From Candidatus Cloacimonadota bacterium (lineage in GTDB: Bacteria; Cloacimonadota; Cloacimonadia; Cloacimonadales; TCS61), in contig JAGGWK010000056.1 of assembly GCA_021157525.1 (NCBI GenBank), forward strand, positions 1 to 58,496: a DNA stretch of 58,496 bases. Direction: 5' to 3'. The notes beneath the pieces were generated by a model. It ran no database searches. It saw only the letters and a list, made by a program, of their open reading frames with translations, and was not told the origin of the DNA. Made by a program: the position numbers and the translations under genes. This document shows, one piece after another, positions 16,994-50,132 of the stretch (the first letter of the stretch is position 1; each line of letters begins with the position of its first letter).

Positions 16994-17209
16994 CCGAAAA
17001 ATTACTTTTTTTTTCTTGGAGATTTTGTCAAAGTGCAAAAGTGGTTTATTGAATAGGTAACTCTCTATATAACATATAATTACAGTTTTCTATCTAATGC
17101 GTTACCTTTCCTTGCTTTGCTTCAGTTTGGAAAACATGCTTGCTAAAAATGAATGAAACAATTTTTCTTGCTTGGCATTAATCCTCTAGGATTGATCAAA
17201 GGAAAGGCC

Positions 17210-18526
17210 ATGGGAGAAAAAAAAAGCATTTTCATCGTTGAAGACGAACGTGTCGTATTATTGGATATTCAACACACGTTGCTGGGTATCGGTTATGTGG
17301 TGGCGGGGGTAGCGTCATCGGGAGAAGAGGTATTGCCCGCTATTGAAAAAGTGCATCCTGATCTGGTTTTGCTGGATATTGTTTTGGAAGGAAAGATGAG
17401 CGGCATTGATGTGGCGGAACAGATTCAGCAAAGTTACGAAATTCCGGTAGTATTTCTCACTTCATATTCAGATGAGGCGACGTTAAAACAGGCAAAGCAA
17501 ACCGGTGCTTATGGGTATATCATTAAGCCATTTGAAGAGCGAGAACTCTTTGCAGCTATTGAGATTGCCTTTTATAAGTTTAATGTTGATCGCATCTTAC
17601 GAGAATCAAAACGGAAAATCGAGCTGCTGCACGTCACTGCCAGAAAACTTGCCAGGATGCAAGAGGCCGAAGATGTATATCAGGAAGCGGTAAATGCCGC
17701 CGAAGCCATCCTGGGATTTACCACCTGCAATCTTCAAATTTTGGAAGACGGCCAATTTGTGGTCAAATCCAGCTCCACCCGTTCATCCTATGGTGAAGGG
17801 ATGACTCCTCAGAGTGCGGAAGTGCTTCAGGCTTACAACGAAAATGAATTTAAAATAATCTCCGATGATGTGCATTCCCGGATATTTTTACCCATTGCCG
17901 GCTATGGCGTGTTCAATGCTCAAACGGCAAAAGCCCATTTTTGCGATGATGATAAACGAATGCTCGATCTTCTTTTTGGTCATGTTAGTGAATCGTTACA
18001 GCGTATCACTCTGCAAAGCAATCTCAAAGCCCAGGCCATCCATGATCCTCTTACCGGGCTCTATAACCGCTATTTCCTCTATCAAACCCTGGAAAACCAA
18101 AAACGTCTTTCAGTCCGCTATGGTCGTGCCATCGCCTTTGTGATGATCGATGTTAACGGATTGAAGGAGGTGAATGATAAACTGGGGCATCTCATGGGAG
18201 ATCAGTTGTTGAAAGATGTCTCTGAAGTGCTGGTGGGAGCATGTCGTAACACCGATATCGTTGTTCGCAGTGGAGGAGATGAATTTCTGATTATCCTGCC
18301 TGAAACAGGAGAGGAGTTGGCGGTGATCGTTAACCGTATCCAGGAGAAAGAGAAGGAATGGAACGAGAAGCATGTCAGCGGTCACTACCGGATGAGCTTT
18401 GCCCTGGGTTACTCTTGGTGGACCCCGGATGGCAACGAGTCGTTAGACGATTCGATAAGTCGAGCTGACGAGCAGATGTACCGTAACAAACGATCTATGA
18501 AACAGGAAATGAGGTCTGATGAGTAA
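17210..18526 (+). CDS. response regulator with GGDEF domain (diguanylate cyclase)
   Basis: Probably makes cyclic di-GMP when its receiver is phosphorylated. The 438 residues begin with a receiver domain (acidic VEDE, phosphorylated Asp56, Lys in KPFEER), then a helical and GAF-like segment (about 135-265) and a GGDEF domain whose catalytic motif SGGDEF (355-359) is intact. RNTD five residues upstream is a complete inhibitory I-site, so product feedback is expected. I use the ATG at 17210 because AAAGGAAAGG precedes it; an upstream in-frame ATG at 17153 lacks this. No kinase is adjacent. It overlaps the next gene by eight bases and diverges from mraZ. Confidence 0.92.
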   Translation: MGEKKSIFIVEDERVVLLDIQHTLLGIGYVVAGVASSGEEVLPAIEKVHPDLVLLDIVLEGKMSGIDVAEQIQQSYEIPVVFLTSYSDEATLKQAKQTGAYGYIIKPFEERELFAAIEIAFYKFNVDRILRESKRKIELLHVTARKLARMQEAEDVYQEAVNAAEAILGFTTCNLQILEDGQFVVKSSSTRSSYGEGMTPQSAEVLQAYNENEFKIISDDVHSRIFLPIAGYGVFNAQTAKAHFCDDDKRMLDLLFGHVSESLQRITLQSNLKAQAIHDPLTGLYNRYFLYQTLENQKRLSVRYGRAIAFVMIDVNGLKEVNDKLGHLMGDQLLKDVSEVLVGACRNTDIVVRSGGDEFLIILPETGEELAVIVNRIQEKEKEWNEKHVSGHYRMSFALGYSWWTPDGNESLDDSISRADEQMYRNKRSMKQEMRSDE

Positions 18527-19913
18527 ACGAATATTAATAGTTGAAGACGAGTGCTTGATTGCTGAAGACTTGAAAATGACGTTACAACAATTTGGCTATG
18601 AAGCCAATTCTATCGTAGCCTATGGCGAAGAAGTGCTGAGTGTAGCCCGGGAAATAAAACCTGATCTGGCCTTGATAGACATCAAATTACGGGGTGGGAT
18701 GGATGGTCTTTCAGCTGCTCAGAACTTGTACAACGAATTGGGTACCCCCGTTATTTTTCTCACAGCAAATGCCAATATCGATACCATTAAAAAAGCGGCA
18801 AAATCTGCCCCCTATGGTTATTTGATAAAACCCTTCCAGGAGCGGGAATTGCAGGTCACTATCGAGCTGGCTCTTTATAAACACAAGATGAACCGTTTTT
18901 TGCGTGATCGTGAAATCCTGCTTCGTAATGTGATAGACATTGATCCGAATATGATATACGTGAAGGATCGAGAAGGCCATTTTGCCATCGTGAATCGATC
19001 CTTTGCCGACATGTTTGGTCTTTCTCCCGAAGAAATCGTAGGCAAGACGTTGCAAGATCTGGCAGATCAGGGCAAACTTTCTGTTTCGCTGATGGAGAGG
19101 CTTTTGCAGGAAGAGATCCAGGTAATGTCAAAGGCTGCACGCATCCATGTACCCGAAGAAGTCTTTGATATCGGCGATGGCAAATTGTGGTTGAAACGCA
19201 CCGTTATTCCACTGGAATTGGATGTATTAGATTCTGGATTACTGGGAGTTTGGGTAGAGATATCAGACTTGAAAAATACCGAATTGCAATTGGAAGAAAG
19301 CTATCGGCAATTGCAAAAGGTAATGGAACAAACCGTGAATGGCTTTGGGGCTGCTATGGAGATGCGCGACCCCTTTACTGCAGGGCATCAACGAAGGGTT
19401 TCCGTCCTTGCGGTAATCTTGGCCAAAAATCTGGGGCTGGATGCACAGAGGATAGAAGCGGTTCGCCTGGCAGCACTGCTTCACGATATTGGGAAGATCT
19501 ATATTCCTTCAGAGATACTGAACAAGCCCCAGCATCTCCTAAACCAGGAGTATGATCTGGTAAAGTTGCATCCCGAAGTGGGATACAATACCCTGAAGAA
19601 AATCGATTTTTCCATGCCCATCGCAGACATCGTTTTGCAACACCATGAGAAGCTGGATGGCTCTGGATATCCAAAGGGATTAACCGGCGACGAAATCCTT
19701 TTTGAAGCGAAAATCATCAGTGTGGCAGATTATGTGGAGGCCATGGTGAGCAATCGCCCCTACCGGGAAGCTCGCAGTCTGACTGATGTCATCGAAAAGT
19801 TGAAAAAGCTTCGGGGAATCAGCTATGACGCCGATGTGGTAGATGCGTTCATCGATCTGGCAGAGACTAGACGCTTTGATTTCAATCTCTTCACCGAAAT
19901 TACCAGCGAGTAG
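18519..19913 (+). CDS. response regulator with PAS and HD-GYP domains (c-di-GMP phosphodiesterase)
   Basis: Predicted to degrade cyclic di-GMP. The 464 residues comprise a receiver (VEDE, Asp in ALIDIKLRGGMDG, Lys in KPFQER), a PAS sensor domain (about 135-255, with VKDREGHFAIVNRSFADMFG) and an HD-GYP domain with HDIGK and HHEKLDGSGYPKGL, both catalytic motifs present. It overlaps the cyclase gene by eight bases, so a synthase and a hydrolase with similar receivers are produced from one message and may answer the same kinase. The PAS ligand cannot be read from sequence. Confidence 0.92.
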   Translation: MSKRILIVEDECLIAEDLKMTLQQFGYEANSIVAYGEEVLSVAREIKPDLALIDIKLRGGMDGLSAAQNLYNELGTPVIFLTANANIDTIKKAAKSAPYGYLIKPFQERELQVTIELALYKHKMNRFLRDREILLRNVIDIDPNMIYVKDREGHFAIVNRSFADMFGLSPEEIVGKTLQDLADQGKLSVSLMERLLQEEIQVMSKAARIHVPEEVFDIGDGKLWLKRTVIPLELDVLDSGLLGVWVEISDLKNTELQLEESYRQLQKVMEQTVNGFGAAMEMRDPFTAGHQRRVSVLAVILAKNLGLDAQRIEAVRLAALLHDIGKIYIPSEILNKPQHLLNQEYDLVKLHPEVGYNTLKKIDFSMPIADIVLQHHEKLDGSGYPKGLTGDEILFEAKIISVADYVEAMVSNRPYREARSLTDVIEKLKKLRGISYDADVVDAFIDLAETRRFDFNLFTEITSE

Positions 19914-39507: not shown

Positions 39508-40113
39508 TTAACTCCGTGGCAGCAGTCCATGTAAAACAATGTCTGCTATGGTGTTTTTTGTTTCGTTAAGAGAAAAAGTCTGATGGCTTAGTGACCACTC
39601 GGTGATCACGAAATTCATAGTGCCAAAGATGAGAAAACTCAGGGATTTCGTATCTATCGGCCGGATGCTTCCTTCGGCAATAGCATCGTTTATAAGGGTC
39701 TCCAAAAAACCCAAATACCGGCGTAAGGGCTGATACGTGGGATATCTTTCGAGAAATTCCGGACTTTGACGCAACTCCACAGCCATCAACCTGGCGACAA
39801 AGGGTTGGTCGCTGAACAATGCTACATGGTGATTGAAAAAGCTCACCAGCTTATCCATGGCTGTCTGCTCATTATCCAGAAGACTTTGTAATTGGTCCAG
39901 CCGCTTGGTGATGATTTCTTCAAAAACTTTGATCAAGAGGTCTTCCTTGTTTTTGAAATAGAGATATATGGTACCATCTCCCACATTTGCTTGGGCTGCA
40001 ATCTGAGCAATCTTTGCTTCATGAAAGCCATACTGTGCAAACACTTCAATAGCTGCATTCACGATGGCTGCTCGTTTTTGTATCTGTTTATCAGACAGAA
40101 CAGTATCGCACAT
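39508..40113 (-). CDS. TetR-family regulator of the efflux operon
   Basis: A 201-residue TetR protein and first gene of the efflux operon; it probably represses the operon and itself until a pump substrate binds. The helix-turn-helix includes AQIAAQANVGDGTIYLYF. The C-terminal ligand domain is helical. AAAGGAGG precedes the ATG. Two matched palindromes 15-60 bases upstream are likely its operators. Confidence 0.93.
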   Translation of the reverse strand: MCDTVLSDKQIQKRAAIVNAAIEVFAQYGFHEAKIAQIAAQANVGDGTIYLYFKNKEDLLIKVFEEIITKRLDQLQSLLDNEQTAMDKLVSFFNHHVALFSDQPFVARLMAVELRQSPEFLERYPTYQPLRRYLGFLETLINDAIAEGSIRPIDTKSLSFLIFGTMNFVITEWSLSHQTFSLNETKNTIADIVLHGLLPRS

Positions 40114-40127
40114 AAATCCTCCTTTTA

Positions 40128-40141
40128 TGAATCACTATTCA
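40128..40141. promoter_or_regulatory. palindromic operator 1 for the efflux TetR
   Basis: TGAATCACTATTCA: five-base arms TGAAT/ATTCA around four bases. It lies 15 bases upstream of the regulator ATG, between start and presumed promoter. Confidence 0.6.
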
Positions 40142-40159
40142 TTTTCTATGGCCAAAAAA

Positions 40160-40173
40160 TGAATCGCTGTTCA
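40160..40173. promoter_or_regulatory. palindromic operator 2 for the efflux TetR
   Basis: TGAATCGCTGTTCA: a second copy of the operator 1 pattern, starting 32 bases away, about three helical turns. The rest of 40174-40299 is AT-rich with no gene or clear promoter. Confidence 0.6.
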
Positions 40174-40299
40174 GTTAGTCAATTATTTTTCGTTCTTTTC
40201 CCTTCTGAAAGATTCGATCATGAAAAAAAAATTGACACCATACAATTTGAAATACACTTGTGTACTCAGGAAATCACAGAAATTGGAAAACAACATCTG

Positions 40300-40331
40300 A
40301 AAGTATTCTACAGAGAAAGTATTCTACAGAG
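40300..40331 (+). repeat. perfect tandem repeat, 2 x 16 bp
   Basis: AAAGTATTCTACAGAG occurs twice without a gap, at 40300-40315 and 40316-40331, ending 31 bases before the start of the corrinoid protein gene. The position suggests an operator for a regulator of the downstream sensory operon, but there is no direct evidence. Confidence 0.8.
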
Positions 40332-40362
40332 TTTGAAAGGTTTAATGAGATAAGGAGATGCC

Positions 40363-41025
40363 GTGAATACGTATAATAACGAACCACTATTTCTCGCTGT
40401 AAAGAAATCTAATCGAATACTGGCAAACGCTATTATAGATGAATATGCTCGGGAACATAGTTATCGCGAGGCCCTCTGCGACATTGTAAAGCCCATCATG
40501 TACACTCTGGGTGAGCTATGGCTCAAGGAAGAGACGACGTTGGCCCAAACTTATGTTGCGGCCAAAATTTCTGAAGATACCCTGAATAAAGCCATCCAGA
40601 AGGGAGAATACGAAGAAACCTCCTCAGACAACCATCGAGTGGCGGTGATTGGCAATGTGGAAGATGATTTCCATTCTCTGGGCAGGAAGCTGGTTGGTAC
40701 TTTTTTATCAGCTTCTGGATGGGAGGTGATAGATTTGGGTAACGATGTTTCCCCCGCAGAATTTGTTGAAACGGCGGTCTCTCACGGGTCCCATGTGATC
40801 GGTGTGTCGGCAATGATGTACAGCACTGCTCAAAATGTCGAGAACATCAGTGCAATATTGGCTCGGCGAAACCTTAAAAATGACATCAAACTGGCGGTTG
40901 GAGGTGCGGTGTTCAAACTCACTCCCACTCTGGTAAAAGAGGTTGGCGGCGATGGCACCGCATCCAATGCTACCGATGCTCCCCGGTTGTTTAATGAGCT
41001 TTTTGAATATCGTGAGGGAAGGTGA
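40363..41025 (+). CDS. corrinoid (B12)-binding protein, MtaC/CarH-like domains
   Basis: The 220 residues are a helical cap domain (about 15-80) and a B12-binding Rossmann domain (about 90-215). The base-off cobalamin motif is present as DFHSLG at 102-107, with His104 the expected lower cobalt ligand, and GG occurs late in the domain (LAVGGAVF). Such proteins carry methyl groups in corrinoid methyltransferase systems or act as B12 or light sensors. In the cap, Trp53 is followed nine residues later by Thr-Tyr where CarH-type sensors have Glu-His. Initiation is at GTG with AAGGAG five bases before it. No methyltransferase is nearby; kinases follow. Confidence 0.88.
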   Translation: MNTYNNEPLFLAVKKSNRILANAIIDEYAREHSYREALCDIVKPIMYTLGELWLKEETTLAQTYVAAKISEDTLNKAIQKGEYEETSSDNHRVAVIGNVEDDFHSLGRKLVGTFLSASGWEVIDLGNDVSPAEFVETAVSHGSHVIGVSAMMYSTAQNVENISAILARRNLKNDIKLAVGGAVFKLTPTLVKEVGGDGTASNATDAPRLFNELFEYREGR

Positions 41026-41028
41026 AGC

Positions 41029-41133
41029 ATGAATTTCAGAGGACGCATTACAGCGGTAATCGCCGAGCAACCTGCCAGGGGAATTCCTTATCGCGGGAGA
41101 AAATACTGTGAAAAATTGGAAGTGACGACATGA
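41029..41133 (+). CDS. 34-codon ORF of unknown function
   Basis: A short basic reading frame starting MNFRGRITAVIAEQPARG. GGAAGG lies upstream of its ATG, it begins three bases after the corrinoid gene stop, and its TGA overlaps the next ATG by four bases. It may be a genuine small protein or only a bridge for translational coupling. I do not recognise a family. Confidence 0.4.
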   Translation: MNFRGRITAVIAEQPARGIPYRGRKYCEKLEVTT

Positions 41134-41699
41134 AGACAACTCCCATCATTGCCTGTTCTATCTTTCGCCCGGCTCTGGAAGCTCTGGGCGACTCGATCCC
41201 ATCTCATCCGGTTTATTTTCTCGATTCCCGGTTTCACTTTACACCGGAGCGGCTTTACAATGAAGTCGTTCGCATCACTCAGGAATTGAAAGTAAAGCAG
41301 GTCTTTTTGCTCTATGGTGAGTGTTCTGCAGGCTTCAACCTGCCCATTCCGGGCATCAATATACTGAGGGTAAATCGGAAGGACTGTCTGGAATTTCTGC
41401 TGGGACCGGAGCAGACAAAATCCTTTGCTCGGCAACGGTGCTTTGTGATGCTTCCGGAATGGGTGATTCGCTGGGAAGAGCTCTTTTATCACTGGTTTGG
41501 TTTCTCACCGGATTTGCTGAAAACCTATATGCAAGAGATTTATTCATCTATCATCATTGTGGATGATCACAGCACTTCACTCCCCGACGCCACCCTCAAA
41601 GATATCGCACAGGCCACCGGCCTGGATTGCCAAAGGTATCCTGTGGATATCACTCTTTTCAGGGATGCAATTTTGCCTATCCTTACGGAGCTGGAATGA
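41130..41699 (+). CDS. DUF1638-like protein
   Basis: The 189 residues fit the DUF1638 pattern: an ACSIFRPALEAL start, FLDSRFHFTPERLYNEV, VFLLYGECSAGFN, NRKDCLEFLLGPEQ, and MLPEWVIRWEELF. Conserved cysteines (in IACS, ECSA and KDCL) could bind a metal. From memory, relatives often sit near corrinoid methyltransferase genes, which fits the corrinoid protein upstream. Biochemical role unknown. It overlaps both neighbouring frames by ATGA. Confidence 0.72.
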   Translation: MKTTPIIACSIFRPALEALGDSIPSHPVYFLDSRFHFTPERLYNEVVRITQELKVKQVFLLYGECSAGFNLPIPGINILRVNRKDCLEFLLGPEQTKSFARQRCFVMLPEWVIRWEELFYHWFGFSPDLLKTYMQEIYSSIIIVDDHSTSLPDATLKDIAQATGLDCQRYPVDITLFRDAILPILTELE

Positions 41700-44347
41700 A
41701 AGACAACAATCTTGATGCCTCTTCTCAGTTGTTCATCAAAAATGTGATAGAAAATGTCCTTGTTTATGCAAATGATCTTCCCCGATTTTTACGTCAGATT
41801 TCCCAACAGCTCAGTGCCTTGATCGGTGGTAAAACCATTGTCCTGACACAAACCTCAAAAGATCCTGAACTCCCGGAAAAAGTGCTGCATGTTTTGTCTC
41901 ATCGTCGACATGATGAAGTGGAAAAGCGCCCATTCTCTCATATCCTTACTCTGTGCAAAAAGGAAAAGAACATGGTGGAATTTCGTTGTGATGATGGCAG
42001 CGAAATTGGCCTGCTCCTTTCACAGATGGGATACAAAAATCTGGTACTGATGCCACTGAATATTCAGCAGCAATCGATAGGACTTTGCCTGTTTTTTGAT
42101 GCAGAGCTCCAGTTTAATTCCCCGGACATTGCAACTATTCAGCGTCTTTCATCTTTTATCTCCAGTATCTTACACAATGCACTTCAGATGAATTCCATGG
42201 AACAGCTGGTTACTCAGCGCACCAGGCGACTGTTAGAAACGGAGCAGCGATTTAATGCTGTGGTTACGTCTACCCAGGAAGGCATCATTATTATACAGGA
42301 TGGAAGGGTGATTTTCTCCAATCCTTCAGCTGAAGCGTTGTTGGGATATTCACCTGCAGAATTTCTTTCCCTGAAATTCAGCGATATCATTGACCCGTTA
42401 GAATGGGAAAAGGTGTGGGATAACTATGTAGCAAGGATGCGTGGTGACGATATCCCGCACAGTTATGAAACCCGCATTGTCGATAAGCAGGGGTATGTGG
42501 TTTCTGCCGAGATAAATGCTTCTGTGATGCAATACAATGGCGCATTGGCATATCTTGTTTTTCTGCGGGATATCACCGACCGCATCACGGCTGAACAGGC
42601 TTTTAAAGAGAGCGAACGCCATTTGCTGCGGGCAATGGAACTGGCCGATCTGGGTAGCTTTGTTTACTATGTTAAATCCAAACACTTTGTTTGCTCCGAT
42701 ACTTTTTATCGACTGTTGGGCTATGAACCTCACTCGATAAAATTTACCACAGATATTCTTAAGGCATCTCTGCATCAGGAAGAGATGTCTCAGCTTAAAG
42801 AGAGCGTAGATAAGATGGATGTGGGGGATACTGTTATCAGGCAAATACCCTACAAACGAGGTACGGAAACCCGTCATTGCCGAGTTATTGCGGAAAAACT
42901 GCACGAAGAGCAGACGGACATTACCTGGCTCAATTGCATTATTCAGGATATCACTCAGCACGCGCAGGATGCTGCGAAGCTGGAAGAGTACAACCGTTCA
43001 TTGGAAAAGATGGTAGAGTCCAGAACCAAAACCCTGGAAGAATCACGGCAAGCCCTCACCTCTTTGCTGGAAGATTCAAATAAGATTCGAGAGGATCTGG
43101 AGAAAATGAATGATAAATTGCTCAAGGAAACGACTATCAGAAAGCGTTCTGAGCAACTTGTCACATTGCAGTCAAAAACCCTTACAGCTCTCACACTGGG
43201 CACTGGGCAAAAAGAGATATTGCAAATAGTATGTGATGAAGTGAAGCAGATTATTCCTCACAGTGGTGTCATGATTTTACGGGAACACAATAACCTTTTG
43301 GAACCCTGTTGCTGGGCAGGGCTCACAGAGACGCAACTGGCCGGGATTTCGGAAGAGCTGGATGCATCCCAAACTGATTTGTTCCCGGGAAAAGCTTCAT
43401 CTGTGAACACGCAATCGGCTATTTTATCAAAAGATTACAAGGCTATTTTGCAGAGATTGAATTATCAATTCTGCTGGTATGAGCCCATAATATCCAAAAA
43501 TGAAAAAAATCTTGGAGTGTTTGTGTTGACTGGCCAAAAAACTGATATTCCGCCCAGCTATGAATCTGCTGTGCTAAACAGCGGAGCAAAACTCATAGCG
43601 CTGGTGCTGGAACGAAAATTGGCTGATCGTCAGGAAATGGTGTTTTCCCATAGATTGCAGGAAATGAACAAGGAGTTGGAAGCCTTTGCCTATTCAGTGT
43701 CTCACGATCTGCGGGCACCACTGCGACATATCGACGGCTTTACCTCAGCATTGAAAAAAAACATCGTCGATACTCTATCGGAGACAAATCGGCACTATCT
43801 CAATCGCATCCTGGAATCCACCAGGCGAATGGGCAGACTCATAGACGACCTGCTGGTCTTTTCCCGCATGGGACGTCAACCATTGAAGAAGTGTACAATT
43901 GATCTGGGGGTGTTGGTTGATTCTGTGATTCGGGAGCTGGATCCGGATATTTCCGGCCGGGACATCCGGTGGACCATCGAGCCCCTCGGGACAGTATTTG
44001 CTGACCAGAATCTCTTAAAACAGGTGATGATAAACCTGATATCCAATGCGCTGAAATTTACGAAAACCCGACAAAAGGCTTGGATCCATATAGGAGTGCG
44101 AGAAAATAATCTGGGGCAGAAAGTCTATTTTGTCAAAGACAATGGTGTTGGATTTAATATGGCATATAAGCATAAACTGTTTGGGGTTTTTCAACGTTTA
44201 CATCGGGATGACCAGTTTGAAGGAACCGGTATCGGTCTGGCCAATGTCAAAAGGATAATCAAGAGGCATGGAGGGGATGTTATGGCGTATGGGGAGCTGA
44301 ACAACGGCGCCAAGTTTTCCTTCACTCTTGATACCGAACAATTTTAA
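41696..44347 (+). CDS. multi-domain sensor histidine kinase (GAF-PAS-PAS-GAF, phytochrome-like kinase core)
   Basis: An 883-residue cytoplasmic kinase without membrane helices. Approximate order: GAF-like (1-170), PAS (190-300, IIIQDGRVIFSNPSAEALLGYS), second PAS with PAC (310-430), coiled coil (435-510), GAF (520-640), HisKA with phosphorylated His in YSVSHDLRAPLRHIDGF, and HATPase with NLISNALKFT, VKDNGVGFNM and FEGTGIGLANVKRI. The kinase core resembles cyanobacterial and bacterial phytochrome kinases, but I see no PHY domain. The start at 41696 overlaps the DUF1638 stop (ATGA). An Rcp1-like receiver follows. Confidence 0.9.
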   Translation: MKDNNLDASSQLFIKNVIENVLVYANDLPRFLRQISQQLSALIGGKTIVLTQTSKDPELPEKVLHVLSHRRHDEVEKRPFSHILTLCKKEKNMVEFRCDDGSEIGLLLSQMGYKNLVLMPLNIQQQSIGLCLFFDAELQFNSPDIATIQRLSSFISSILHNALQMNSMEQLVTQRTRRLLETEQRFNAVVTSTQEGIIIIQDGRVIFSNPSAEALLGYSPAEFLSLKFSDIIDPLEWEKVWDNYVARMRGDDIPHSYETRIVDKQGYVVSAEINASVMQYNGALAYLVFLRDITDRITAEQAFKESERHLLRAMELADLGSFVYYVKSKHFVCSDTFYRLLGYEPHSIKFTTDILKASLHQEEMSQLKESVDKMDVGDTVIRQIPYKRGTETRHCRVIAEKLHEEQTDITWLNCIIQDITQHAQDAAKLEEYNRSLEKMVESRTKTLEESRQALTSLLEDSNKIREDLEKMNDKLLKETTIRKRSEQLVTLQSKTLTALTLGTGQKEILQIVCDEVKQIIPHSGVMILREHNNLLEPCCWAGLTETQLAGISEELDASQTDLFPGKASSVNTQSAILSKDYKAILQRLNYQFCWYEPIISKNEKNLGVFVLTGQKTDIPPSYESAVLNSGAKLIALVLERKLADRQEMVFSHRLQEMNKELEAFAYSVSHDLRAPLRHIDGFTSALKKNIVDTLSETNRHYLNRILESTRRMGRLIDDLLVFSRMGRQPLKKCTIDLGVLVDSVIRELDPDISGRDIRWTIEPLGTVFADQNLLKQVMINLISNALKFTKTRQKAWIHIGVRENNLGQKVYFVKDNGVGFNMAYKHKLFGVFQRLHRDDQFEGTGIGLANVKRIIKRHGGDVMAYGELNNGAKFSFTLDTEQF

Positions 44348-44356
44348 GGAGGAGAT

Positions 44357-44800
44357 ATGGCTGAAGTTCCACGGATTTTATTAGCGGAAGACAACATCGA
44401 TGACATTGAGTTGACTCTACTTGCTTTTAAAGAAAACAAACTGGCAAATAACATCACAACCGTCCGGGACGGAGAAGCCGCTCTTGATTATCTCTATTGC
44501 CGTGGTGAATTTGCCCAGCGTCCACGAGGTAATCCGGTTTTGGTTTTGCTCGATCTGAAAATGCCCAAAGTGGATGGATTGGAAGTGCTGGCTGCCATGA
44601 AGAAAGATCCAAAATTGCAATCTATACCGGTGGTGGTTCTCACATCATCCAGGATGGAAAGCGATGTGGTTGAGAGCTACAATTTGGGGGTAAATGCCTA
44701 TGTGGTAAAACCGGTGGATTTCAGTGAGTTTGTGAATGCAGTGAAGAATCTGGGTATTTTCTGGATTTTGCTCAATGAACCCCCTCCGGAGGTCGTATGA
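44357..44800 (+). CDS. single-domain response regulator, Rcp1-like
   Basis: A 147-residue receiver with acidic residues in LAEDNIDD, phosphorylated Asp in LVLLDLKMPKVDG, Thr in VVVLTSS and Lys in YVVKPVDF. The insertion after helix 2 (YCRGEFAQRPRGNP) is typical of Rcp1-type partners of phytochrome kinases. No output domain. It follows the kinase by nine bases with GGAGG before the ATG, so it is the likely phosphoacceptor. Confidence 0.92.
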   Translation: MAEVPRILLAEDNIDDIELTLLAFKENKLANNITTVRDGEAALDYLYCRGEFAQRPRGNPVLVLLDLKMPKVDGLEVLAAMKKDPKLQSIPVVVLTSSRMESDVVESYNLGVNAYVVKPVDFSEFVNAVKNLGIFWILLNEPPPEVV

Positions 44801-46221
44801 GATTGATAAATGTTCTGCTTTTAGAGGATAATGAATTCGATGCAGAATTGATAGAACTGGAGATTGAACAGAGTAACCTCCCTCATCGCATTACCCGGGT
44901 AGAAACCAGGAGTGATTATAAGCAGGCTCTGGAGTCTCACCATTATGACCTTATTTTGTCTGATTACAGCCTGCCACAATTCGATGGTCTCCAGGCATTG
45001 CAAATTGCTCAGAAATGTGCTCCAGATACGCCTTTTATCATTGTCACCGGCTCGCTATCGGAAGAGACTGCGGCAGATTCTATAAAAAGTGGTGCGTGGG
45101 ATTATGTGGTTAAGCAGCGGCTTTTCCGCCTTACCGGTTCCATCAAAAATGCATTGGAATTGCAGCAGCAAATCAGCCAGAAGCAGATTGCCCAGCGGGA
45201 ATTGATTCGTAGCGAGCAACGGTACCGTACTCTGGTAGAGAGTGCTGAACAGCCCATATTTTTGGTGGATCGATCAGGCGTGACGTTGTATGCCAACGAT
45301 AAGGCAGCGGTAATATTGCAGGATGGAATTGCGGAAGATCTGGTTGGCTCGTCCATCCGGGATTTGTTGCCAGAGAACATCTCTGCCGATTTCATGGAAA
45401 AGGTTGAAGAGGCGCTGGATACCGGTTCTCAGGTGAAGTTTACCTATAGATGCATGAAACATGATACCGAGGTTTGGTTGACCTGCCGTCTTTCACCGGT
45501 ATCAGAGCCTGAGAATCATATAGATCAGGTGCTCATTATTGCCACAGACATTACCAATATCAAACAGTCGGAAGCCCGTCTGTTGCGAACCCTCAAGGAA
45601 AAAGACGTCCTGCTCAAAGAGGTGCATCATCGGGTGAAAAACAATATGCAGGTTATCACCAGTCTGTTGAATATGCAGGTTCGCTATACCAAAGACGTCG
45701 CACTCAAGCGCCTTCTTGGGGAGAGCGAAAGTCGCATTCGCTCTATGTTGCTCATCCATGAAACTCTGTATCAATCGGAGGATATCAGTTATGTTCACTT
45801 CCATTCCTACATCAATACAATGATCGATCATCTGCTCTCTTCTTACCTGACTATGGATGGGAATTTGGAAATCGTAAATAATGTGGATGATGTTTCTATC
45901 GATGTAAATACGGCCATTCCCTGCGGATTGATTATCAATGAGCTGATTACGTCGATGTTTGAGGAGAAAGGTGCCGGTGTGTGCAGAATAGTGGTCGGGT
46001 TTCACCAGCATCCAGACGGAACCTATGAGATGGAAGTAAGCCATGATGGCCAGGAATTACCCGATGATTTTAATATAGAAAAGGCCAACACCATGGGGAT
46101 GAGTGTGTTGCGGGCTTTAAAGAATCAATTAAACGCACGATTGGATATTCATACAAAAAAACCGGTGACCTATAATTTTACCTTTAAGGAACCTCATCTA
46201 CAAACCTATGGCAAAGTGTAG
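44797..46221 (+). CDS. hybrid receiver-PAS-histidine kinase (HisKA_2 type)
   Basis: The 474 residues are a receiver (about 1-120; Asp in LILSDYSLPQFDG), a PAS domain (about 145-260) and a HisKA_2 kinase with the His in LLKEVHHRVKNNMQVITSLLNMQ. The ATPase domain looks degraded: the N-box, usually NELVTNALKH, reads NELITSMFEE, and the DxGxG box is SHDGQELPDD. It may receive phosphate or bind partners rather than autophosphorylate. It overlaps the Rcp1-like gene by four bases and ends the operon. Confidence 0.88.
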   Translation: MRLINVLLLEDNEFDAELIELEIEQSNLPHRITRVETRSDYKQALESHHYDLILSDYSLPQFDGLQALQIAQKCAPDTPFIIVTGSLSEETAADSIKSGAWDYVVKQRLFRLTGSIKNALELQQQISQKQIAQRELIRSEQRYRTLVESAEQPIFLVDRSGVTLYANDKAAVILQDGIAEDLVGSSIRDLLPENISADFMEKVEEALDTGSQVKFTYRCMKHDTEVWLTCRLSPVSEPENHIDQVLIIATDITNIKQSEARLLRTLKEKDVLLKEVHHRVKNNMQVITSLLNMQVRYTKDVALKRLLGESESRIRSMLLIHETLYQSEDISYVHFHSYINTMIDHLLSSYLTMDGNLEIVNNVDDVSIDVNTAIPCGLIINELITSMFEEKGAGVCRIVVGFHQHPDGTYEMEVSHDGQELPDDFNIEKANTMGMSVLRALKNQLNARLDIHTKKPVTYNFTFKEPHLQTYGKV

Positions 46222-46677: not shown

Positions 46678-46878
46678 TTAGCCACCGCTTATCAGGTGGA
46701 TGACACTAACCTCGGCATGTTCAGGAATCCTATAGCTGTCCCATTGAGCTCTTTTTACCAGGGTCCCATTTACTTTTATCACCAACATCTTAAAGGTGTA
46801 ATTGCGAATATTCAAAATATCTCGAACCTTCATGCCCGGCTGCCAGGCCATCGATTCACCGTTTACCATTATGTTCAT
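46678..46878 (-). CDS. ThiS/MoaD-like sulfur carrier protein
   Basis: A 66-residue ubiquitin-fold protein ending in Gly-Gly (SVIHLISGG), the site adenylated and thiocarboxylated by an E1 enzyme. MVNGESMAWQPGMKVRDIL is typical of the ThiS branch. Next to a tungsten-type oxidoreductase it may serve pterin cofactor synthesis (MoaD role) rather than thiamine. The ATG overlaps the end of the E1 gene by four bases. Confidence 0.85.
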   Translation of the reverse strand: MNIMVNGESMAWQPGMKVRDILNIRNYTFKMLVIKVNGTLVKRAQWDSYRIPEHAEVSVIHLISGG

Positions 46879-47492
46879 TGTATTCCTTTGAAGAGTATTT
46901 CCAAGGCGCAATTAGCCTGCATATTGGCCACGATGCCCACCCGGGGCGCCATGGGGGAGATGCGTCCCTGCAATTGGGTTGTCTCATCTCCGCAGATATA
47001 AAGGGTTCCGGATTGACGGGTTTTCAGGGCATTGTTGTTACCTACTCCGGCCAAGCCAGATCCCACGATAATGGGTTTTTTCGGAAACGCACTGCACCAT
47101 GTTTCGATCAGCATCTCTTTGCTTTCTGCTGTATCAAAGGCTTCTATCAGGATGTCGCATTGCCCGAAAATCGGTACCACATTTTCTTCGTTTATTCTTA
47201 TTTGATGCATCTCCAGTAAGGTGAATGGGTGGATTTTTTCCAGATTGGATTTCAGTGCATCAACTTTTGTCTCGCCCAATTGAGACAAAAAAAACTGCTG
47301 ACGATTGAGGTTTGAGGCTTCCACTCGGTCAAAGTCAGCAATGACCAATGCACCAATGCCGGTACGTACCAGGGTTACCGCCACATTGGAACCCAGGCCT
47401 CCAGCTCCGGCGATACCGATTCTGGCATGACGAAGAATGGGGATAAAGCGGGGATTGTGGCGAGAAAAAAATTGGTCTTTTATGGCTTGCAT
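46875..47492 (-). CDS. ThiF/MoeB-like adenylyltransferase (E1)
   Basis: Activates the C-terminus of the sulfur carrier encoded next to it. The 205 residues have the nucleotide loop GIAGAGGLGSNVAVTL, DFDRVEASNLNRQQF, TKVDALKSNLEKIHP and DILIEAFDTAESKEML. The zinc-binding Cys pairs of MoeB and canonical ThiF are missing, as in the short ThiF family 2. It is coupled to the carrier gene by an ATGA overlap and lies downstream of the oxidoreductase. Confidence 0.88.
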   Translation of the reverse strand: MQAIKDQFFSRHNPRFIPILRHARIGIAGAGGLGSNVAVTLVRTGIGALVIADFDRVEASNLNRQQFFLSQLGETKVDALKSNLEKIHPFTLLEMHQIRINEENVVPIFGQCDILIEAFDTAESKEMLIETWCSAFPKKPIIVGSGLAGVGNNNALKTRQSGTLYICGDETTQLQGRISPMAPRVGIVANMQANCALEILFKGIQ

Positions 47493-47501
47493 AAGATGAA
47501 A

Positions 47502-47523
47502 AGCGGGGGATAATTCCCCCGCT
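47502..47523 (-). terminator. hairpin between the oxidoreductase and E1 genes
   Basis: Stem AGCGGGGGA / TCCCCCGCT with a four-base loop, followed by TTTT on the minus strand. It may partly end transcription so that cofactor genes are expressed less than the enzyme, or protect the upstream message. Confidence 0.6.
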
Positions 47524-47532
47524 GCTCCTTAC

Positions 47533-49710
47533 TTATTGATAGTATTTTTTCAGAACTTCCATCACGCCACTGTTGGCAAGGCCAAGCTCTGTGATTTTTT
47601 CTATCGTTGGTACACCGTTGTTATCCCATCCACGACGGTCATACACGGCATCGCACAGTTTCTGATATGCTTCTTCACGGAAGAAACGCATTTTTAAACG
47701 ACGTTCATCTACGCTTTTGCCGGTGGGATCCCAGCCGTATTTTTCTTTCAGCTGCTTGTCATACCGCTCTTCCCGGGAAAGGTACTCTTCATTGGTTACC
47801 GGCCCGGCAGAACGGTAGGGGATTTCATCATGTTTACGGGTTCCAAATCCCAAACGAAGATTGAATACCCGTTGGAAGTTATACACCCGTTCACTTTGCA
47901 AAATCAGCTCCTGTTGATCGATGTTGTTGCCGGTAATGGCATTGAAAAGGTCAACGTAATTTTGCAGGTGCTTTGGCACTTTTGCAGGCTCATCAGTTTC
48001 GCCATTGTCTGCCGGTTCCACATCATTCCATGGCAATTTACATAACCCCTGCAGGCCAAACCAGGTACGGAACATCGGGAAGTAATGCAGGGCTTCGGCT
48101 TTATCTTCAAAGGTTGGAATCTGGTTGTTCACCATATCCATAAAGATCAACCACGCTTCATCATGCTGGGCACCCTTCAGAGCAAGGCCGTATCCACCCT
48201 GCATTGCCAGCGATTCCTTGGTTACATACTCAGAATATTCCATACCTTTGCATTCCATACCGATGTCTTGCAAAAAGGCAGCATCTGCGCCATACTCTTC
48301 CACAAAGAGCTTTTTCATGCGACGAATACCCAGACCGATGATTTTTCCAAATCCTTCGCCCCGTGCCATTTTATGTAACATCTCTATGGCTTCTTCACCC
48401 CGGCCGAAACTGAGGTCGTAGCCTCCGGTGATCTCTTTGTTGATAATGCCATTTTCGTAGCATTCCATCACAAAGGACATCCCGGTTCCCCAGGAAATAG
48501 TATCGATGCCATAGGTGTCACAGTAGAAGTTAGCTTCAACGATAAAGTGAGGATCGAAAATCCCCATATTTGCGCCAAAGGCGGCAGCTGTTTCATATTC
48601 CGGACCATCAACAGAGACGATATCTCCTTTGTAAGGCCCGGTTCTTAATGTATATCTGTCCACGCTTTTTGCGCACTGCATGGTGCAACCATACCAGCAT
48701 CCGTCAGGGATGCCTTGTGTGAACATCTCGCGCCATACATGAGAAGTGATTTTTTGCGCCTTATCATGGCGACCAAATTTGTAGTTGTGGGTTGGCAGGA
48801 GATCATAATCGTTCATCAGCTCAACCAGGTGAGCGGTTCCCACATGACGCATGTCACATTGTTTATCATCTTCTTCATAGAGCTCACGATGATAATCGGC
48901 AGCAATTTCTTTGATGCGATCAAGGTCTGCCACGTGATTGCTGTCTGCCTGGAGCTGGCTGAATTTACACACGATGCCTTTGATCTTTTTATGGCGGAAC
49001 AGTGTTCCCAATCCACCGCGACCTGCCTGTTTCAGACGTGCAACCTGACGGCGACGATCGTAGAATGAGAAGTTCAGGCATCCAAAGAAGGAGTGCTCTG
49101 CTGCAACACCAGCGGAAACGGTGGCGATGGCTTTTTTCTCCTGCTCATTTTTGGCAAACATATCACACATCTGCTCTGCCAGAAGATGAGAATTCACATC
49201 CTCTTCGGGAGCTTCAAAAATCTGGATTTTTCCAGCATCGCCATCTATGAAGATGATGATATCTTTTTCGGCAATACCCTGCACTTCAATGGCATCCCAG
49301 CCGGAGAACTTGAGGTATGGGCCAAAGTAACCGCCTACGTTACTATCTACCGGTGCGCCAGTGAGAGGAGAAATCCCGCAGACGATAGATTTTCCAGCGC
49401 CGGGATATTGTGTGATACCCCCCATGGCACCAGCAGCGATGACAATTTCGTTTTCCGGAGAATCCCACTTGGTGTTTTCATTGGTGGCATCCCAGAGAAG
49501 TTTCATGTCAAAACCTCGTCCGCCAGTAAACACATCCTTCATCTCCTGAGTTACCGGCTTGGATGTGATGGTGTTTTCACTCACATTAATATGGAGTGTG
49601 CGGTTTGCATAGCCCATTTTCAGCGGCTGCTTTTCGTAGGTAAGCTCTGTCAAAAGCTTGTGAGCTTCTTTCATCTTTGCTACATTATAGGGATTTTGGT
49701 AAACATTCAT
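47533..49710 (-). CDS. tungsten-type aldehyde:ferredoxin oxidoreductase family enzyme
   Basis: The 725 residues match the AOR family: N-terminal AOR domain (MGYANRTLHINVSENTITS, FTGGRGFDMKLLWD, PLTGAPVDSNVGG) and C-terminal domains with the cluster ligands CWYGCTMQC, GPEYETAAAFGANMGIFD, DTISWGTGMSF and a late GLCKLPWNDV. It should hold a tungstopterin and one 4Fe-4S cluster and oxidise an aldehyde or reduce an acid. It is about 100 residues longer than archaeal AOR and the first two ligands are three residues apart (C-x3-C-x3-C). Substrate unknown. The ATG at 49710 overlaps the ferredoxin stop (TAATG). Confidence 0.92.
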   Translation of the reverse strand: MNVYQNPYNVAKMKEAHKLLTELTYEKQPLKMGYANRTLHINVSENTITSKPVTQEMKDVFTGGRGFDMKLLWDATNENTKWDSPENEIVIAAGAMGGITQYPGAGKSIVCGISPLTGAPVDSNVGGYFGPYLKFSGWDAIEVQGIAEKDIIIFIDGDAGKIQIFEAPEEDVNSHLLAEQMCDMFAKNEQEKKAIATVSAGVAAEHSFFGCLNFSFYDRRRQVARLKQAGRGGLGTLFRHKKIKGIVCKFSQLQADSNHVADLDRIKEIAADYHRELYEEDDKQCDMRHVGTAHLVELMNDYDLLPTHNYKFGRHDKAQKITSHVWREMFTQGIPDGCWYGCTMQCAKSVDRYTLRTGPYKGDIVSVDGPEYETAAAFGANMGIFDPHFIVEANFYCDTYGIDTISWGTGMSFVMECYENGIINKEITGGYDLSFGRGEEAIEMLHKMARGEGFGKIIGLGIRRMKKLFVEEYGADAAFLQDIGMECKGMEYSEYVTKESLAMQGGYGLALKGAQHDEAWLIFMDMVNNQIPTFEDKAEALHYFPMFRTWFGLQGLCKLPWNDVEPADNGETDEPAKVPKHLQNYVDLFNAITGNNIDQQELILQSERVYNFQRVFNLRLGFGTRKHDEIPYRSAGPVTNEEYLSREERYDKQLKEKYGWDPTGKSVDERRLKMRFFREEAYQKLCDAVYDRRGWDNNGVPTIEKITELGLANSGVMEVLKKYYQ

Positions 49711-50132
49711 TAGAAGTGCCTCCTGTAAAAAACTCGTTCCAGTGGTTCTGGTCGCTCTTCCAAGGTTAATGCACCGGTAGGGCAGCTCTTTACGCAAACG
49801 CCACAGGATATGCATTTAAAGGGAATTGGCTCTTTGGGAGCGAAAAACATTGATGCGCTGGGGCAAAAACCTACGCAGGACATACAGCCTACACAGGCAT
49901 TGGCATCCAGCCGCACAATGCCTTGGGCATCTCGGTTCAATGCCTCGACGGGGCACACATCTATGCACTCACCGCATTGGTTACATACATTACAATCCAA
50001 ACCAGATTCAGACGTGATGATTTTTATCCGGGATTTTTCCCGATTCTCTTCTTTAAACCATGTCTGTGAACATACATTCTCGCAAATGCCACAGCCAATA
50101 CATTTGGTTTTGTCCCAAACTAATACTTTCAT
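49710..50132 (-). CDS. ferredoxin-like subunit with four 4Fe-4S motifs
   Basis: A 140-residue electron transfer protein with four cysteine sets: CIGCGICENVC, CNVCNQCGECIDVCP, CVGCMSCVGFCP and CISCGVCVKSCP. The arrangement resembles the AorA and BamC subunits that pair with tungsten AOR and BamB enzymes. It is the first gene of the operon, so it probably takes electrons from the oxidoreductase. No FAD-binding third subunit is encoded nearby. Confidence 0.92.
   Translation of the reverse strand: MKVLVWDKTKCIGCGICENVCSQTWFKEENREKSRIKIITSESGLDCNVCNQCGECIDVCPVEALNRDAQGIVRLDANACVGCMSCVGFCPSASMFFAPKEPIPFKCISCGVCVKSCPTGALTLEERPEPLERVFYRRHF

Follow-up and report, generated by a model that had tools for sequence, protein, structure and literature searches.

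What does a stand-alone corrinoid protein do at the head of a run of signalling genes? The question is raised by an operon in a 58,496-nucleotide stretch of DNA from a Candidatus Cloacimonadota bacterium (contig JAGGWK010000056.1), which at its full length is here called the window. The original prediction saw in it a possible sensor of cobalamin state, methyl donors or light. With a probability of about 0.6, we propose that the operon belongs to a conserved type of signalling cassette with a corrinoid input, composed of a corrinoid protein, a URO-D homologue, a DUF1638 protein and a GAF/PAS kinase or other output, and that it acts as a sensor of methyl or corrinoid state.

The operon and its gene products

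ORF calls and a domain scan confirmed the arrangement first described, six ORFs on one strand with ATGA overlaps or gaps of a few base pairs, together with the domains named for them. The operon (40363-46221) lies entirely on the plus strand, and its junctions are, in order, a 3-bp gap, two ATGA overlaps, a 9-bp gap and another ATGA overlap.

39508-40113, minus strand: divergent TetR gene, upstream of the operon
40299..40330, no strand assigned: perfect 16-nt tandem direct repeat (GAAAGTATTCTACAGA, two copies), 33 bp upstream of the first start codon
40363..41025, plus strand: corrinoid (B12-binding) protein, 220 aa, GTG start, PF02310 (E 9.5e-21)
41029..41133, plus strand: 34-codon ORF, matching no family in the domain scan
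41130..41699, plus strand: DUF1638 protein, 189 aa, PF07796 (E 7e-20)
41696..44347, plus strand: soluble histidine kinase, 883 aa, with PAS, GAF, HisKA and HATPase domains (Pfam)
44357..44800, plus strand: single-domain receiver, Rcp1-like, 147 aa, PF00072 (E 2e-18)
44797..46221, plus strand: REC-PAS-HisKA_2 protein, 474 aa, in which Pfam recognises no ATPase part

The corrinoid protein combines a helical cap with a B12-binding Rossmann domain and contains D102-x-H104-x-x-G107, S149 and GG180-181. The methyl-carrier features (DxHxxG, a conserved Ser and GG) occur in all 53 corrinoid proteins of our alignment, where the D-H-S ligand triad (D102, H104, S149) is invariant. The closest solved structures are the methyl carriers 1y80, MttC (7xcn) and MtmC (3ezx). 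The window protein itself deviates at six of 64 conserved columns, mostly mildly.

A cobalamin-binding domain with a helical cap is also used in sensing by CarH and the photocobilins (PMC11796333, PMC10979010), and the signature of B12-based light sensors is GxxW, EH, GxxH and GxxxP (PMC11796333). Although GxxW is present, with W53 in 52 of the 53 proteins, none of the 53 has the EH element; the window protein reads TY at this position, and all 53 have F or Y in place of His. The motif is DxHxxG, not ExHxxG, the D-H-S methyl-carrier triad is in place, and among solved structures methyl carriers (E 1e-32) are closer than CarH (E 1e-7). The URO-D and DUF1638 partners described below also set the cassette apart from CarH and the photocobilins, and URO-D would have no role in a light sensor. 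Light sensing by the CarH or photocobilin mechanism was rejected as contradicted by the sequence, and that part of the original prediction is not supported. A B12-based light sensor of the CarH, AerR or photocobilin kind feeding the phosphorelay is highly improbable here, even though distant order relatives (L043-L045) do encode corrinoid proteins that have the full W-x9-EH and are linked to kinases.

Corrinoid proteins of this W-x9-EH type were seen in order relatives at L043:1193-1891, L044:1814-2866, L045:7321-8382 and L046:9782-10843. The first three adjoin histidine kinases, and those of L044 and L045 have a phycobilisome/globin-like N-terminal domain, resembling the photocobilins.

The DUF1638 protein scores 71.9 bits against PF07796, for which the curated cut-off is 27. 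Cys9 and Cys86 of DUF1638 are invariant and Cys65 is nearly so; the window protein keeps all three. Its predicted model is alpha/beta and confident (pLDDT 93), and a fold search with it against the PDB returned no match at E <= 1e-3, so the fold gives no function.

The kinase begins with a GAF domain specific to the cassette (about residues 1-180), followed by PAS, a PAS-like region, GAF, HisKA and HATPase. It has the HisKA domain with His and the N, G1 and G2 boxes of an HK1 histidine kinase, its motifs being SHDLRAPL, NLISNALK, DNGVG and GTGIGL. A model and fold search confirmed the GAF fold of the N-terminal domain, which is better conserved among cassette kinases than the middle PAS region (mean pairwise identity 0.31 vs 0.20); no Cys is conserved in the N-terminal GAF alignment. 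The label "phytochrome-like" given to this kinase does not hold, since the Pfam scan lists only PAS, GAF, HisKA and HATPase, with no PHY family, and the label reflects generic kinase similarity alone. The receiver has the phosphoacceptor motif LDLKMP. In the REC-PAS-HisKA_2 protein Pfam detects no HATPase domain, so that its kinase activity is doubtful; a protein of this type also closes the operon of a relative from the same class (G112; L049:8404-12108).

The cassette in other genomes

DUF1638 occurs in three of 125 genomes of the window's phylum, and both of the others carry it in the same context. In G112, a corrinoid protein 49% identical to that of the window is followed in turn by a URO-D-family protein, a DUF1638-GAF-PAS kinase and the REC-PAS-HisKA_2 kinase. 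In G052, from the same order, the corrinoid protein and URO-D precede a single-chain DUF1638-HisKA-HATPase-REC protein. Corrinoid proteins of 33-38% identity from genomes of the same family were considered as orthologues and rejected; they belong to other gene clusters without these kinases, which by eye look homocysteine-methyltransferase-like.

A GTDB scan with the window corrinoid protein as lone query gave no match. An alignment of two corrinoid proteins was the productive query and retrieved 50 loci (40-54% identity) from about 12 phyla, with Geobacter relatives over-represented. The phyla comprise Desulfobacterota with Geobacter relatives, Nitrospirae, Bacteroidetes, Verrucomicrobia/Kiritimatiellae, Planctomycetes, Clostridia, Spirochaetes, Myxococcota, Armatimonadetes, Omnitrophota, Riflebacteria and others. 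These 50 loci and the two relatives from the same phylum (n=52) were searched with profiles built from the loci.

Immediately after the corrinoid gene, all 52 loci have a URO-D-family methyltransferase homologue (median spacing from the corrinoid stop, -3 bp), the counterpart of the cognate methyltransferase that a methyl carrier would be expected to have in its operon and that the window lacks. The URO-D gene overlaps the DUF1638 gene, which comes next in 50 of the 52; L054 is without DUF1638, and L077 ends. Among the 47 downstream or fused proteins scanned (48 members counting the window), 44 have an HATPase domain and are histidine kinases, one is an HD-GYP protein (L078) and two are cut by contig ends (L062, L097). 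Since retrieval used neither the kinase, URO-D nor DUF1638, the linkage is not a selection effect. The window has a corrinoid protein of the cassette clade, DUF1638 and a kinase with the N-terminal GAF in the same order, and in place of an intact URO-D gene only a probable remnant of 34 codons.

The linkage of corrinoid protein, DUF1638 and kinase is thus conserved in the way that a search for the same gene order had been suggested to reveal, with URO-D as an additional member. Related loci carry methyltransferase homologues together with the kinases, not instead of them. The absence of an adjoining methyltransferase or reactivase, stressed in the original prediction, is true of the window and misleading as a description of the system, because every other cassette has a methyltransferase homologue. 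In a literature search that reached mainly beyond the subscription journals, we found no published description of the cassette and, as first supposed, no described system with this exact gene set; the accounts consulted that name DUF1638 gave no link to kinases. The cassette is widespread in bacteria and apparently undescribed.

A sister clade, found in the same and other genomes, has the corrinoid protein and URO-D with DUF1638-kinase-REC or DUF1638-GGDEF proteins. The corrinoid proteins of both cassette types formed one clade (support 0.94), within which the main type alone was weak (0.40).

In the main type, DUF1638 is fused to histidine kinases (L049, L088), to GAF-PAS-HD-GYP (L078) and to PAS in a contig-end fragment (L062). 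In the sister clade it is fused to a histidine kinase in L039, to kinase-REC in L118, L119 and L120, and to GGDEF in L122, where the diguanylate cyclase (L122:3618-5255) follows the corrinoid/URO-D pair. The same pair precedes the fusions of L119 and L120, and that of L118 follows a corrinoid gene, with no URO-D recognised there. Fused as it is to kinases, HD-GYP and diguanylate cyclase, DUF1638 is part of the input module. An input that stays constant (corrinoid protein, URO-D, DUF1638) while the outputs are exchanged (kinase, hybrid kinase, HD-GYP, diguanylate cyclase) is characteristic of a sensory module. Conservation of the linkage across about 12 phyla, together with these fusions of DUF1638 to signalling outputs, makes a corrinoid-linked signalling system very likely, and in this respect the sensor first suggested stands.

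A different type of DUF1638 was also encountered, fused to a hydantoinase-A-like domain (L121:2418-5258) or encoded in one series of genes with URO-D, RACo and hydantoinase-like proteins (L127:3-5473), resembling a metabolic use of the protein.

URO-D homologues and the 34-codon ORF

The best solved relative of the cassette URO-D proteins is MtaA (4ay7; E 1e-24). The zinc ligands of MtaA and MtbA are HxC and a C-terminal Cys; both cysteines are missing from all 50 cassette members, which have an invariant Asp316 instead. Methyl transfer by these proteins is consequently putative, and they could be pseudo-enzymes. Judging from these residues, a thiol methyltransferase function is unlikely.

The window has no URO-D gene at this place, and the 34-codon ORF occupies the slot, beginning 3 bp past the corrinoid gene and overlapping the start of DUF1638 in the manner of URO-D genes at other loci. 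Residues 1-20 of the ORF, MNFRGRITAVIAEQPARGIP, align in register with the URO-D N-terminus (MNSxxRVxxTLxGxPVDRxP); of the 3,289 open start codons in the window none scores higher, and shuffling gives p ~1e-4. By eye, the C-terminal part of the ORF has no convincing match to URO-D C-termini. The ORF is probably a deletion remnant of a URO-D-family methyltransferase gene and not an independent gene, and the window operon is a lineage-specific version of the cassette following loss of that gene. The assembly is in 87 contigs and has no close relative for comparison, so a misassembly at the deletion is a residual possibility.

Loss of URO-D and drift of DUF1638 raise the question of decay. The window DUF1638 deviates from the family consensus at eight of 25 conserved columns, while others in its clade deviate at four at most. 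Against a decaying, non-functional relic, which we consider improbable, all other ORFs are intact with their catalytic motifs, translational coupling is preserved, the three DUF1638 cysteines are retained and the corrinoid protein shows only the few, mostly mild deviations noted above. The cassette seems instead to have been kept in altered form.

With URO-D deleted to a stub, the window operon may sense the ligand or redox state of the cobamide itself, may use a distant MtaA-like URO-D protein in trans or may be heading to a changed function. The genome has one other URO-D protein, on contig C55 (L050:2512-3528, plus strand), which is distant from the cassette type and by eye carries the HxC and C-terminal Cys motif of MtaA. 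Near it is a second, stand-alone DUF1638 protein (L050:4933-5547, minus strand), with no corrinoid protein there. These two proteins could serve the window corrinoid protein in trans. The other B12-binding proteins of the genome have 742, 562 and 587 residues, the last being below the cut-off; the 742-residue protein appears mutase-like in length and sequence. A single pterin-binding protein (399 aa) is encoded on another contig.

Proposed working, related systems and surroundings

What was observed is the order of the genes, their domain fusions, the conserved residues and the loss of URO-D; the best explanation is a cassette that signals corrinoid state. The corrinoid protein would hold a cobamide base-off/His-on, and the URO-D partner would determine the cobalt state by transferring a methyl or similar one-carbon group either to a ligand or from it. 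DUF1638, with its three conserved cysteines, would dock on the corrinoid protein, read or maintain the cobalt state, and hand it to the GAF domain of the adjoining kinase and so to the phosphorelay, which here would consist of the receiver and the REC-PAS-HisKA_2 protein. The methyl transfer, the docking, the direction of signalling and the ligand are inferred. Most likely, what is sensed is the state of the corrinoid (its methylation, ligand or redox state), which URO-D, where present, would set.

One of the closest known gene sets is the mec cassette of anaerobic dichloromethane degradation, with a kinase (MecA), a corrinoid protein (MecB), URO-D proteins (MecC and MecE) and a receiver (MecD) (PMC9768040). 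Both systems have a corrinoid protein and a URO-D-family protein adjoining a two-component pair; unlike ours, mec is metabolic, with an MTII protein and a transporter, and has no reported DUF1638 (PMC9768040). The cassette has a single URO-D without zinc cysteines, DUF1638 fused to outputs, and no MTII. DUF1638 itself is known from Phaeobacter inhibens, where it is required alongside a split methionine synthase and a RamA-like protein (PMC5764234), and from a glycine betaine demethylation context in Ruegeria (PMC12478193). There too the gene adjoins a stand-alone corrinoid protein, but its further partners are methyltransferase and reactivase subunits and a kinase is absent, whereas here there is a kinase and no reactivase.

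The mec and Phaeobacter systems, and the DUF1638 copies beside RACo and hydantoinase-like genes (L127), lend some support to a mec-like catabolic or biosynthetic corrinoid methyltransferase operon, in which the kinase would merely control expression and DUF1638 would help to reactivate the corrinoid, the role put forward for it in Phaeobacter. This account is unlikely, though less so than decay. Our flank survey found no recurrent metabolic family beside the cassettes, and no MTII pterin protein, RACo or transporter travels along; the one frequent flanking group, joined by loose clustering, apparently consists of signalling proteins. The window genome has no protein with the RACo/RamA C-terminal domain. 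In addition, DUF1638 is covalently fused to histidine kinase, HD-GYP and GGDEF domains, and it is the outputs that vary while the input remains constant.

Sensor kinases genetically tied to corrinoid methyltransferases are also found in Methanosarcina, where MsmS and RdmS, reported to be heme- or thiol-based, control methyltransferase genes (see references in PMC11619418). We know of no corrinoid/URO-D/DUF1638 input module in these kinases. A corrinoid-state sensor of the kind proposed here may constitute a new class that detects its signal through a genuine corrinoid-dependent transfer reaction: a URO-D homologue would charge the corrinoid protein dedicated to it, DUF1638 would read the cobalt state and interchangeable outputs (histidine kinase, HD-GYP, diguanylate cyclase) would respond, in mostly anaerobic bacteria of about 12 phyla; the window lineage would have shed the enzyme and would sense the corrinoid directly. 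We put this broader proposal forward tentatively, at slightly less than even chances. For DUF1638, to which no mechanism has been assigned, the cassette offers a testable role as the link from corrinoid protein to signalling outputs. Its distribution suggests that Geobacter-type bacteria, sulfate reducers, spirochaetes, planctomycetes and others share a widespread, uncharacterised sensor of corrinoid state or methylated compounds. The variant in the window, its enzyme naturally deleted, would be an experiment of nature separating corrinoid sensing from methyl-donor sensing.

The 16-nt tandem repeat before the operon is a possible regulatory site. Allowing two mismatches, the genome has no copy beyond the two, so that the repeat yields no regulon. 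The operon and its vicinity contain no riboswitch. An imperfect inverted repeat with 18-nt arms (40128-40173), likely a TetR operator, lies between the operon and the divergent TetR gene. Elsewhere in the window, two adjoining ORFs at 17153-19913 resemble, by eye from their translations, REC-GGDEF and REC-PAS-HD-GYP proteins. A PPNP-family gene follows the operon on the minus strand, and positions 46678-50132 of that strand hold what by eye is an aldehyde ferredoxin oxidoreductase-like cluster with ferredoxin, ThiF-like and MoaD-like genes.
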